A DNA stretch of 64,000 bases from Longimicrobiales bacterium (GTDB lineage Bacteria > Gemmatimonadota > Gemmatimonadetes > Longimicrobiales > RSA9): NCBI GenBank assembly GCA_035764935.1, contig DASTYK010000165.1, positions 1 through 64,000 of the forward strand, in the 5' to 3' direction. Position numbers and translations under genes: made by a program. Numbering within the stretch: position 1 is the first letter of the stretch; each line of letters starts with the position of its first letter. Under the pieces are notes generated by a model, which worked only from the letters and a program-made list of their open reading frames with translations, was not told the DNA's origin and did not search any database. Positions 35,041 to 57,613 of the stretch are shown here, piece after piece.

Positions 35041-36330
35041 TCAGCGCTCGACCACCATCGAAAAGCCCAGCCCGCCCGCAGCGCAGACGGTGATCAGGCC
35101 GAGACCAAGACCGCGACGCCGCATTTCGCGCAGCAGCGTGATCGTCAGGCGTCCTCCCGTGGCGCCGAACGGGTGCCCGATCGCGATACTGCCGCCCATC
35201 ACGTTGATGCGGCTCTCGTCCAGGATGCCGACCTTCCGGTCGCGTCCCAGCTCGCGGCGGGCAAACTCGTCGGAATCCAGCGCCTGCAGGTTGGAAAGCA
35301 CCTGCGACGCGAACGCCTCGTGCATCTCCCACAGCTCGATGTCCTGCATCGTCACGCCGGCGCGCTCCAGTGCGACCGGCGCGGCATATGCCGGACCCTG
35401 CAGCAGCTGTGCACCGGGGTTCAGCGCGCTGTACGCATAGCTGCGGATGTAGCCGAGCGGCTCGTACCCCAGCGCCTTCGCCTTTTCCTCGTCCATCAGC
35501 AGCACCGCCGATGCGCCATCCGTGAGCGGCGATGCGTTGCCTGCAGTGACGGTGCCGTACTTCCTGTCGAAGACCGGCTTGAGCGACGCGAGCTTGTCCA
35601 GCGACGTGTCGCCGCGGATGCCGTTGTCGGTGTCCGCCACTTCCTCGTAGTCGGGCGGGATGAAGACGGGAACGATCTCCTCCTTGAGCCGCCCGTCCGC
35701 ATGACCCTGCTGCGCAAGCTGATGCGAGCGCAGTGCCCACCGGTCCTGCGCCTCGCGCGAGATGCCGTTCTCCTTCGCCATGCGCTCGGCGCTCTCGCCC
35801 ATCGACTCGCCCGTCGACGGCTCCGCGATCGCCGGCGTGCGCGGCGCCAGGTCCTTCGGCCTCACGCCCGCGAGCGCACTGACCCGCTGCGCGACCGTCT
35901 TCGCCTTCGATGCCGTGAGGAGTGCACCACGCAGCTTCTTCGAGAGCAGCATTGGTACATCGCTGAGCACCTCCACGCCACCGGCGATCATGATGTCGGC
36001 ATGCCCCCGGTGGATCTGGTCCGCGGCCGAGGTGATCGCCTGGTTCGCAGACGCGCACGCCCTGCTCACGCTGAACGCTGGCTTGGTCGGCGGGATCCCC
36101 GCAGCAAGTCCCACCTCACGCGCCACGTTGGGGGCGTCGATGTTCGGGACCACGACGCCGTAAACCAGCTCATCGATCTGATCCGGCACCAGGTCGGCTC
36201 TGGACAGAAGCTCACGGACGGCGACGGTGCCGAGCTGGGTGGGAGACATATCGCGGAAATAGGAGCCCGCCTTGCTGAAGGGGGTCCGGCAGCCATCGAC
36301 GATCGCGACTCTACGCCCGTTTTCCGCCAT
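35041..36330 (-). CDS. acetyl-CoA acyltransferase (thiolase, FadI/FadA type)
   Basis: A 429-residue thiolase. The nucleophilic cysteine is C92 in SRACASANQ, H337 lies in MHEAFASQ, H386 in IGHPFGATGGR, and the second active cysteine C416 in CAAGGLGF. The length and N-terminal TPFSKAG fit the degradative FadI-like branch that cleaves 3-ketoacyl-CoA in beta-oxidation. No partner hydratase/dehydrogenase gene is adjacent. It reads leftward into a small acidic protein and an SLC13 carrier. Start at ATG 36330. Confidence 0.92.
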   Translation of the reverse strand: MAENGRRVAIVDGCRTPFSKAGSYFRDMSPTQLGTVAVRELLSRADLVPDQIDELVYGVVVPNIDAPNVAREVGLAAGIPPTKPAFSVSRACASANQAITSAADQIHRGHADIMIAGGVEVLSDVPMLLSKKLRGALLTASKAKTVAQRVSALAGVRPKDLAPRTPAIAEPSTGESMGESAERMAKENGISREAQDRWALRSHQLAQQGHADGRLKEEIVPVFIPPDYEEVADTDNGIRGDTSLDKLASLKPVFDRKYGTVTAGNASPLTDGASAVLLMDEEKAKALGYEPLGYIRSYAYSALNPGAQLLQGPAYAAPVALERAGVTMQDIELWEMHEAFASQVLSNLQALDSDEFARRELGRDRKVGILDESRINVMGGSIAIGHPFGATGGRLTITLLREMRRRGLGLGLITVCAAGGLGFSMVVER

Positions 36331-36503
36331 GCGGCCTCCTTACAGCGGGTTGCGGAAGCTTGGGGCGTGGAAGGGCGGGTTGCAAGGCGGGGAGCGGTCG
36401 CGGCGAGCCGGTTGTGTGCTGTCTCGCTCTGCAATTCCGGACACCCGTCTGTACTCGACCGTGGCGCGCGCCGCGCCCACGCCGACGGACTGCGAGCTGC
36501 CTT

Positions 36504-36548
36504 CGGGCAGAGTTGGCGCGCAGGCGCCCGCGCCCGGGCAGGTGCGAG
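36504..36548 (+). repeat. left 45-bp arm of the inverted repeat
   Basis: Begins CGGGCAGAGTTGGCGCG and ends CAGGTGCGAG. It ends 95 bases before the start codon of the enclosed gene. The preceding CTGCCTT with the arm's first bases can form a small hairpin (CTGCC/GGCAG). Confidence 0.9.
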
Positions 36549-36643
36549 TATGGCGAGTGCTTCTGCGGATGGCTGATTGCTGATGGCGGGTTTCGCTATG
36601 CTCGAGCCCCTCTCGACGATCAACGTTCACTGGGAGGGGGATC

Positions 36644-37018
36644 ATGGACTACTACTTCGATCACGAAAAGCTGCAGGTGTACCAACTGGCGAGGGAGCTG
36701 AACCGCGAGGTGGTTCGCCTGCTCGGTCGGTTACCGCGGGGGCACGCGGATTCACGTGACAACCTGAGACGCGCGTCCATGTCCGTGAGCCGCAACATCG
36801 CCGAAGGTGCCGGCAAGTGGAGAGTTCCGGACAAAATTCATTTCTATCAGATCGCCCGCGCCTCGGCCACCGAATGTGCGGCCTCGCTCGATGAGCTTGT
36901 GGATTGCGCAGGGCTCAAGAGCGGGGATGTCGAGGAGCTGAAGCGAACGGCCGCACGCATCGTAGCGATGCTGATCTCGATGATCCGCTCGCTGGAAACC
37001 CGCACGGCGGCGAACTGA
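36644..37018 (+). CDS. four-helix-bundle protein (23S rRNA intervening-sequence protein family)
   Basis: A 124-residue, all-helical protein of the S23/IVP family (TIGR02436-like), first known from intervening sequences in 23S rRNA genes of Leptospira and related to Avd of diversity-generating retroelements. Hallmarks are the start YFDHEKLQVYQLARELN, the central NIAEGAGKW at about 50-58 and ARASATECAASLDEL near 70-85. The surface is basic, which suits nucleic-acid binding. No rRNA gene is present. Instead the gene lies between long inverted repeats. GGGAGGGGG at 36632-36640 is a strong ribosome-binding site. Its molecular function is unknown. Confidence 0.88.
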   Translation: MDYYFDHEKLQVYQLARELNREVVRLLGRLPRGHADSRDNLRRASMSVSRNIAEGAGKWRVPDKIHFYQIARASATECAASLDELVDCAGLKSGDVEELKRTAARIVAMLISMIRSLETRTAAN

Positions 37019-37065
37019 AGGAAACATCGGGGCGCGAACACTGTTCAGTCTACCCGCCTACGATG

Positions 37066-37110
37066 CTCGCACCTGCCCGGGCGCGGGCGCGTGCGCGCCA
37101 ACTCTGCCCG
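37066..37110 (-). repeat. right 45-bp arm of the inverted repeat
   Basis: Inverted copy of the left arm with a single mismatch. It starts CTCGCACCTGCCCGGG, 47 bases after the stop of the four-helix-bundle gene. Its outer end runs into a 22-base direct repeat. Confidence 0.9.
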
Positions 37111-37151
37111 AGCAGTTCCGCTCTCCCACAACTCTGCCCGAGCAGTTCCGC
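37100..37151. repeat. 22-bp direct repeat, two perfect copies, 30-bp period
   Basis: AACTCTGCCCGAGCAGTTCC plus GC occurs at 37100-37121 and again at 37130-37151. The first copy overlaps the outer end of the right inverted-repeat arm by 11 bases. The copies carry a small dyad (CTGC/GCAG) and end six bases before the sufU stop. Confidence 0.9.
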
Positions 37152-37156
37152 CGTTC

Positions 37157-37615
37157 CTACCTGGCTTTCACCTTCTTCAACGCCTCTGCGACTGCATCCC
37201 ACCCCAGCAGCGCGCATTTCACCCTCACCGGAAACTTCGCCACGCCCGCGAGCGCGCGCGTGTCTCCCAGCGCGCGGTCGCTGGCCGCAGCGTCATCGCC
37301 GTGCATCATCGCGGCGAACCGCGCTCCCAGCTCATGCGTCTCGGACGGAGTCTTCCCCACGAGCAGCGACGTCATCATCGATGCCGACGCCTGTGAGATC
37401 GAGCAGCCCTCCCCCAGGAACTTCACGTCCGAGATGCGACCGTCGGAATCCAGTTTCAGCCCGAGATGAATCTCGTCGCCGCAGGTCGGGTTCTTCATGT
37501 GCACGGTCGCGTCCGCGTCCGGGATGGCGCCGCGGTTGCGCGGCTTCTTGTAGTGCTCGAGGATCAGCTCCTGGAACAGCGCGCCGAGTGCGGGGGTGGA
37601 GCGGTCAATCGTCAT
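37157..37615 (-). CDS. sufU: SufU, zinc-dependent sulfur acceptor/scaffold of the SUF system
   Basis: A 152-residue SufU protein. The ligand residues C45 and D47 (NPTCGD), C71 (GEGCSIS) and C134 (RVKCALLGW) match the zinc site of SufU, and the extra loop between C71 and C134 separates it from IscU. SufU takes sulfur from SufS and passes it to SufBCD. It is the last gene of the suf operon, 26 bases after sufS. The translated C-terminus (KKVKAR) ends beside the repeats of the four-helix-bundle cassette. Confidence 0.93.
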   Translation of the reverse strand: MTIDRSTPALGALFQELILEHYKKPRNRGAIPDADATVHMKNPTCGDEIHLGLKLDSDGRISDVKFLGEGCSISQASASMMTSLLVGKTPSETHELGARFAAMMHGDDAAASDRALGDTRALAGVAKFPVRVKCALLGWDAVAEALKKVKAR

Positions 37616-37641
37616 GGCAGGTTTGCGGGTCGCGACGTGTG

Positions 37642-38883
37642 TCAGCCGATTGCGAACAGCTCGCGCGCCGTGATCAGTGCCGCGGCGAGCCGGTCGATCT
37701 CTTCGGTGGTGTTGTAGAGGTAGAACGACGCGCGCGCGGTGGCAGGCACGCCGAGCCGGGTCATGAGCGGGCCGGCGCAGTGGTGTCCCGCGCGAACGGC
37801 GATGCCCTCTGCATCCAGTACTGTCGCGATGTCGTGCGGGTGCACGCCCTCCAGGGCAAAGGAAAATACCGCGAGGCGCTCTTCGAGGTTCTCGGGGCCG
37901 AACAGCCGTATGCCTTCGACCTGCGACAGCCTGTCCATCGCGTGCCGTGCGAGCTCATGCTCCCACGCGAGGAGCGCGTCATGGCCGATGCCGTCGATGT
38001 AGTCGCATGCCGCAGCCATGCCGACGGCGCCGGCCGCGTTGGGAGTGCCGGCCTCGAACTTGTGCGGCACCCTGGCCCAGGTCGAGCACTCCATGGAGAC
38101 CGACTCGATCATCTCGCCGCCGCCCTGGTAGGGCGGCATCGCGTCGAGCAGCTCGCGCCGCGCCCAGAGCACGCCGATGCCCATCGGGCCGCACATCTTG
38201 TGGCCGGACAGGGCGTAAAAGTCACAGTCGAGCGCCTGGACGTCGACGGGCAGGTGCGGTGCGGCCTGGGCGCCGTCCACCAGGACGAGCGCGCCTGCCG
38301 CATGTGCCTTCTCAATGATTGCGTGCACGGGGTTGATCGTGCCCAGTGCGTTGGATACATGCCCGACCGCTACCAGCTTCGTCCGCTCGTTCAGCAGGCG
38401 ATCATACTCCTCGAGAACGAGCCGTCCCTGCTCATCGATGTCGACCCAGCGGATCACGGCGCCGGTCCGCTCCGCGACGAGCTGCCAGGGCACGATGTTG
38501 GAGTGATGCTCGAGCATGGTGACGATGATCTCGTCGCCGGGCTGCAGGTTCGCACCCCCCCATGACGATGCCACCAGGTTGATCGCCTCGGTCGTGCCGC
38601 GGACCCAGATCACCTCGTCCGGGGATGGCGCATTGATGAAGCGTCCGAGGCGGACTCGGGCGTTCTCGTACGCGTCGGTCGCACGGCGGGCCAGGTCGTA
38701 CAGACCGCGGTGTACGTTGGCGTTGTCCTGCAGCAGGAACTCGTTGACGGCGTCGATGACCGGGCGCGGCTTCTGCGACGTTGCGGCGTTGTCGAGGTAG
38801 GCGAGCGGCTTGCCATTCGCCGTCTGGTCCAGCAGCGGGAAATCGGCGCGCAGCCGATGGATGTCCGGCATTACGGTGGCCAC
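37642..38883 (-). CDS. sufS: SufS cysteine desulfurase
   Basis: A 413-residue PLP enzyme that removes sulfur from cysteine as a persulfide. The PLP lysine is K229 in SGHKMCGPMG, and the persulfide cysteine is C369 in RAGHHCAGPL, the group-II position. LDNAATSQKP and EHHSNIVPW are further family marks. A GTG at 38883 is preferred because AGGAGG stands six bases before it; the ATG at 38871 (MPDIHRL) is too far from that site. It lies between the Rieske gene and sufU in the operon. Confidence 0.93.
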   Translation of the reverse strand: MATVMPDIHRLRADFPLLDQTANGKPLAYLDNAATSQKPRPVIDAVNEFLLQDNANVHRGLYDLARRATDAYENARVRLGRFINAPSPDEVIWVRGTTEAINLVASSWGGANLQPGDEIIVTMLEHHSNIVPWQLVAERTGAVIRWVDIDEQGRLVLEEYDRLLNERTKLVAVGHVSNALGTINPVHAIIEKAHAAGALVLVDGAQAAPHLPVDVQALDCDFYALSGHKMCGPMGIGVLWARRELLDAMPPYQGGGEMIESVSMECSTWARVPHKFEAGTPNAAGAVGMAAACDYIDGIGHDALLAWEHELARHAMDRLSQVEGIRLFGPENLEERLAVFSFALEGVHPHDIATVLDAEGIAVRAGHHCAGPLMTRLGVPATARASFYLYNTTEEIDRLAAALITARELFAIG

Positions 38884-57403: not shown

Positions 57404-57530
57404 CGTGTCCGAACCTCTGTTGCTGCCCGCGCTCGGCGCGGGCGGATTGTACGGCGCCTGGATGCCTGTTGCCCGGTACGCGCCGCAGCGCACCGGGCGG
57501 CAAAGTCCTGTTTCGGGTACTGCGGGCCGG

Positions 57531-57553
57531 GGCCCCGGGCCCGGGCCGGGGCC
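57531..57553. other. GC-only hairpin between kynB-like and GAF genes
   Basis: GGCCCCGG and CCGGGGCC form an eight-base stem around GCCCGGG, inside a run composed only of G and C. It separates the stop at 57614 from the start at 57403 on the leftward strand and may act as an mRNA-stabilising or pausing element. Confidence 0.45.
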
Positions 57554-57613
57554 TGGAGCGGCGGGTGGCGCTGCGCGCGTCCGCTGTTCCTCGACCCCCG
57601 TCATCGCGTGCTT

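Follow-up and report, generated by a model that had tools for sequence, protein, structure and literature searches.

Intervening sequences (IVSs) of 23S rRNA genes carry a gene for the 23S-rRNA-intervening-sequence protein (IVP; Pfam family PF05635, also called S23p). The IVS of Coxiella burnetii is 428 nt long and has a 28-bp terminal stem, with tandem GACAGAT heptamers before the S23p ORF (PMC4990558). In the REPIN/RAYT systems, a gene lies within inverted repeats, relatives of which are scattered as short-spacer inverted doublets and are presumed to be mobilised in trans (PMC3116915, PMC2817692). Arrays of a few heptamers, largely intergenic, have been described in Xanthomonas and Nostoc (PMC4692102), Geobacter metallireducens (PMC2700814) and Beggiatoaceae (PMC4679880), where they were read as G-quadruplex, regulatory or unexplained sequences. 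There are about four heptamers per array in both Xanthomonas and Geobacter (PMC4692102, PMC2700814). Most Xanthomonas arrays have four units, and Xcc and Xac hold 70-75 convergent pairs (PMC4692102). In G. metallireducens, the GGACCGG heptamer occurs in 49 elements, four times in each, and most of the 16 class-3 sites consist of five MTYCTGA heptamers arranged as a fold-back; both were described as regulatory (PMC2700814). These elements appear to be repeats of the kind that forms the arms of the IVP loci described below. IVP genes are not mentioned in the searched text of the Xanthomonas and Beggiatoa papers (PMC4692102, PMC4679880), and no paper linking IVP genes with these repeats was found in the open-licence literature.

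The window, which is the whole 64-kb stretch of DNA analysed here, contains one such gene framed by an inverted repeat (Table 1). A first-pass annotation, made from the letters of the window, had described 45-base arms matching at 44/45 positions around a single IVP-family gene. This core sits within arms of 49 nt that are 47/49 (96%) complementary and spaced by 511 nt, or 53/58 when a short outer extension is included (36494-36551 with 37063-37118). The sole gene between the arms does belong to PF05635, with a profile score of 75.5 bits against the curated cut-off of 33.8. Among inverted repeats of at least 25 nt within 1 kb, the window has no second one that is more than 80% complementary. 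The local inverted-repeat score was 44.5 at this locus, compared to a median of 12.5 and a maximum of 20.5 over 1,418 random placements in the host genome. The cassette yielded no match to a nuclease or transposase domain.

Table 1. Coordinates of the cassette, its parts and its neighbours in the window
Feature	Position	Strand	Remarks
Left arm of inverted repeat	36503..36551	+	Outer extension from 36494; strongest self-match at shift 6 (0.49)
IVP gene, PF05635 four-helix-bundle protein, 124 aa	36644..37018	+	PF05635 E 4.6e-21; AlphaFold model
Right arm of inverted repeat	37063..37111	-	Outer extension to 37118
23-nt direct repeat (family D2), copy 1, outer edge of right arm	37099..37121	+	30-nt spacing
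23-nt direct repeat (family D2), copy 2, just beyond right arm	37129..37151	+	
Whole cassette, 625 nt	36494..37118	.	Between sufU and thiolase genes
sufU (NifU/SufU protein) neighbour	37157-37615	-	
Thiolase neighbour	35041-36330	-	

Like a 23S rRNA IVS, this cassette has one PF05635 gene and stem-forming terminal inverted repeats, and the cassettes found here measure about 400-700 nt. It differs in lying at a junction of protein genes and not in an rRNA gene, in having inverted arrays on both sides and in having dispersed gene-less copies. No Rfam family matched positions 36000-37700, and rRNA is therefore absent from the locus, in line with the annotation, which had seen no rRNA gene nearby; the neighbours are protein-coding. 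A location inside 23S rRNA was also rejected for the other fetched loci, where a motif scan found no conserved 23S motif. The annotation had further expected the transcript to close into a loop like an IVS stem, and in the RNA fold of 36490-37122 the arms do pair as a long stem around the gene (z = -7.5 against 20 shuffles). The cassette resembles a RAYT locus in its layout, but its only gene encodes a non-catalytic-looking four-helix bundle instead of a Y1/HUH transposase, and its arms are tandem arrays instead of single palindromes.

Further copies were found in the host genome (G000; 3.83 Mb, 195 contigs, 96% complete). It has four PF05635 genes, each within long inverted arms, and the four arm sequences are distinct; the arms match at 48/54, 50/57 and 63/72 positions in the cassettes on contigs C90, C59 and C173, respectively. 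By pattern and BLAST searches, whose reach is limited, the window arm occurs at nine further clear places in this genome, mostly solo and not in pairs. Two gene-less inverted pairs, C90:7403-7561 (159 nt) and C56:4943-5185 (243 nt), were read directly. Their arms are those of the C90 and C59 cassettes, and therefore at least these IVP genes are each accompanied in trans by a repeat family of their own. These pairs, and GGGAATC pairs in Luteimonas and other Xanthomonadaceae, are dispersed doublets of the kind known from REPINs. A solo C90 arm, a GC-rich GGGCCGGGGCCCGGGG array, also lies in the window itself at 57521-57560 (+), far from the IVP gene.

To survey the architecture, PF05635 genes of related genomes were combined with 80 named loci from many phyla, giving 191 loci in total. 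The sample holds one genome per species, and several are drafts with contigs that break at repeats. Each flank was compared with the reverse-complemented opposite flank, with gene edges set by a trimmed core HMM. A score of at least 15 was reached at 155/191 loci. When right flanks were swapped between loci, this score was reached in 1.7% of the diverse set and 2.6% of the window's own family, and in 11-18% of two groups whose members share units. Flanks compared in direct orientation reached it at 21/191 loci. One query of phage records returned no IVP genes.

The arms are degenerate tandem arrays, with a period of 6 in the window's family and of 7-8 elsewhere. Arrays of period 7 or 8 have a density of 2.64 per kb within 150 nt of an IVP gene, compared to 0.056 per kb for all periods at 3-10 kb; for periods 7 and 8 the near density is about 47 times higher than the far one. 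Within the same 150 nt, the named set has no arrays of period 5, 6 or 9. Flank periodicity is strongest at 6 for the window's own family and at 7 for both the diverse set and family f3, although these group means used untrimmed gene edges and the flanks may miss part of the arms. In Xanthomonadaceae flanks, periods 6, 9 and 15 are as strong as period 7, perhaps because coding sequence adds multiples of three. In the named loci, arrays located farther out are far more similar to the local arm (0.48) than to other arms (0.18), and 58% of them rank in the top 5%.

Several cassettes stand out by their units or settings. One from the window's relatives (L077 172-794, on G004:C17) has arms of the GGGTTA type, like eukaryotic telomere repeats. 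A type I-D CRISPR-Cas operon on a Pseudanabaena plasmid (L317 2263-2956) has a cassette with inverted heptamer arms between its cas6 and cas4 genes. On a Nostoc edaphicum plasmid (L316 2445-2933), a cassette with TAGGGAG arms lies between two ribonucleotide reductase genes.

Occupied and empty forms of the same site were found at gene junctions and inside a gene. The gap between sufU and the thiolase gene is 826 nt in the window, compared to 119 nt in G008 and 103 nt in G002, both of which are without an IVP gene there; the two genes are likewise neighbours in G004. The annotation had asked for empty sites in relatives, and had held that a lack of other copies, with the same arrangement in distant relatives, would argue for a fixed locus. 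Other copies were found, and the junction is empty in relatives. Between accB and accC of Xanthomonadaceae, 27 IVP loci are filled by cassettes of 433-532 nt, and 14 genomes are empty with gaps of 5-15 nt. At this junction, G177 has a 159-nt remnant with both ends kept, and in G165 the gap is taken by a gene-less element of 136 nt; its arms are GGGACCC, as are those of the IVP gene that G165 has elsewhere (L198). At L306 and L292, accB-accC junctions of two genomes, the place of the full cassette is taken by a gene-less element or by a cassette with an internal deletion.

An operon of three genes, A-B-C, occurs in nine Nostoc plasmids (L318, L312, L311, L319-L323) and forms a natural filled and empty set for two IVP cassettes. 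Its copies are mostly about 90-98% identical. Both junctions are empty in pC052_B, p057_H, pC052_A and pNsp_b. The A/B junction holds a cassette with AGTCAGR arms in pC052_D, pNsp_a and pNPM1, and the B/C junction holds a different cassette with GGGAAAA-type arms in pNsp_c. The IVP gene is uninterrupted in pNsp_a but is cleanly split in pNPM1 by a 182-nt gene-less element, which has AATTCAG/AGTCAGR arms. This element (L322 1290-2000; L328-L333) was found at 98 places in 43 Nostocales plasmids with a conserved interior, and one copy separates two annotated halves of rarA in Calothrix. A 170-nt internally deleted cassette was found in pC052_A. These short gene-less elements with inverted ends resemble MITEs, and some are internally deleted cassettes (L327, L292), but no transposase ends or target duplications were identified here, and the interiors of the Xanthomonadaceae mini-elements are unrelated to one another. 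No clear target duplication was found at the insertions compared. The 182-nt insertion in pNPM1 leaves at most 1 nt of ambiguity at its junction, and the possible TTCTA or ATG duplications at the Nostoc cassette junctions may be part of the element. Two Calothrix NIES-22 plasmids with one cassette were rejected as a case of transposition; they share the surrounding genes and therefore look like copies of one segment. Trichormus and Scytonema plasmids were rejected likewise, as their context is shared.

The gene-less repeats follow the IVP genes across genomes. Among 120 Xanthomonadaceae genomes, GGGAATC arrays were found in 31/53 IVP-positive and 10/67 IVP-negative ones (Fisher P 7e-7), although these genomes are related and the counts are therefore not of independent events; the ten negative genomes that still hold arrays count against the main explanation given below. 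Luteimonas and its relatives have convergent GGGAATC pairs with four heptamers on each side, similar to those described in Xanthomonas (PMC4692102). Among 20 named genomes, the GGGAATC pattern was found only in Luteimonas and in a planctomycete with a GGGATTC-like IVP arm. The AGTGCNN pattern gave 49-574 matches in each of seven genomes of genus g13 that have IVP genes, most with AGTGCNN-type arms. Elsewhere in the window's order it gave a few matches in some genomes, and none in the window's own family (f1) and family f2.

Arm similarity was correlated with IVP protein identity, with Mantel r values of 0.71 in f3, 0.74 in Xanthomonadaceae, 0.35 in f1 and 0.14 in the diverse set. When restricted to pairs with less than 60% protein identity, the values were 0.40, 0.41, 0.12 and 0.06, respectively; distant comparisons are therefore of little use, and simple co-inheritance could account for much of the coupling. 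At accB-accC, both arms changed together between genomes, among GGGATTC, GGGAATC, GTGATTC and GTGAATC, and 0/10,000 shuffles equalled the observed pairing (permutation P < 1e-4). Such joint change may require gene conversion, selective upkeep of the stem or machinery of the element that renews the arms, or it may reflect repeated independent insertion. Because both arms change unit jointly, near-identity of arms is not by itself a sign of recent origin, which the annotation had offered as one reading beside conversion or selection; the arms appear to be kept matched. Its core view of a mobile cassette is supported, but no result points to a passive passenger. Because arm sequence tracks the IVP protein, these comparisons suggest that the IVP gene belongs to the mechanism.

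The AlphaFold model of the window IVP (pLDDT 93.8) has a four-helix-bundle fold, and its best PDB matches are 2GSC (XCC0516) and 2RLD. XCC0516, a solved relative that forms a pentamer, is highly similar to the accB-accC type of Xanthomonadaceae (L224, E 8.5e-42). Its N-terminal RES, which precedes RPHERL, has the form of the final heptamer translated in frame, and L242 shows the same. We know of no catalytic site in the IVP family, and therefore an enzyme is missing from the account. Weaker matches of the model were to Avd of diversity-generating retroelement (DGR) complexes (4DWL, 8UB7); 2GSC and Avd 4DWL are homologous (PMC10053308).

The architecture, its specificity for IVP genes, insertion at junctions and dispersed gene-less derivatives with the same unit are direct observations. 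We consider that the window feature is probably an IVS-like mobile cassette outside rRNA, in which an IVP with no known catalytic domain serves its own arms in the manner of RAYT and REPINs.

An unlikely alternative is that the arms are ends recognised by an HUH (Y1) transposase encoded elsewhere, such as a RAYT or an IS200/IS605 enzyme, with the IVP as a passenger or accessory. IS200/IS605 enzymes use a fixed target. The right end of the 182-nt element adjoins GATAA or a near match in seven Nostocales copies, and the pNPM1 target already held GATAA before insertion, which suggests a fixed target and gives this alternative a hint of support. The absence of observed target duplications also fits it, as does the resemblance in structure and spread to REPINs (PMC3116915). 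It is opposed by the arm unit tracking IVP identity, by the genes between the arms being consistently IVP and by the cassettes themselves, at which no GATAA boundary was seen.

It is more doubtful still that these are fixed regulatory or RNA-structural loci, with the arms as a selected transcript stem or terminator around a resident IVP gene. The accB-accC cassette, common to the 27 Xanthomonadaceae loci, looks stable over long times, which counts against mobility; its arms stay complementary despite sequence change, and the window transcript folds well. Against a fixed locus are the empty sites in close relatives, the two different cassettes in one Nostoc operon, the insertions into genes and the many copies of gene-less derivatives. 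Retrotransposition with a partner reverse transcriptase, as with Avd and the DGR reverse transcriptase, is very improbable. The window IVP model shares the Avd fold and the arms resemble templated repeat addition, but the host genome has no RVT_1 (PF00078) match, in agreement with the annotation, which had seen no reverse transcriptase nearby. One of 12 genomes in the family has RVT_1, yet 9/12 carry IVP, and RVT_1 is common in the sister family f2, which is without an IVP gene. That the inverted repeat arose by chance in GC-rich intergenic DNA has a negligible probability: the window arms are GC-rich and partly repetitive, but the window-wide, random-placement, swapped-flank, direct-orientation and array-density controls all refute it.

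For a mobile cassette served by its own IVP, the following route may be proposed. The IVP would bind its own arms as a hairpin, as RNA or single-stranded DNA, and would direct the copying or insertion in trans of anything bounded by those arms, whether cassette or mini-element, with an enzyme supplied by the host. Once transcribed, the arms would pair, and the stem could be trimmed by RNase III, protecting host transcripts; insertion inside operons would therefore be tolerable. The IVSs of 23S rRNA would be the subset of cassettes that landed in rRNA, a view consistent with the terminal stem and tandem heptamers of the Coxiella IVS (PMC4990558).

The IVP family has so far been known mainly from odd inserts in rRNA genes, and it is now tied to repeats of unexplained origin. 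It is quite possible, and we propose this tentatively, that these loci form a new class of mobile DNA spanning phyla, in which a small, non-catalytic, pentameric IVP that binds RNA or single-stranded DNA recognises its own inverted arms of short tandem repeats and spreads both cassettes and gene-less repeats. Such a class would explain the heptamers of Xanthomonas, Nostoc and Geobacter as well as the origin of rRNA IVSs. Two questions, the role of the very common S23p/IVP proteins and the origin of intergenic heptamer arrays in cyanobacteria, xanthomonads and others, merge into a single testable one. If the IVP does spread the arrays, the rRNA intervening sequences would gain an origin, the empty sites and matched protein-repeat pairs would be ready for experiments, and bacteria would host a class of mobile elements that annotation pipelines leave unnamed.
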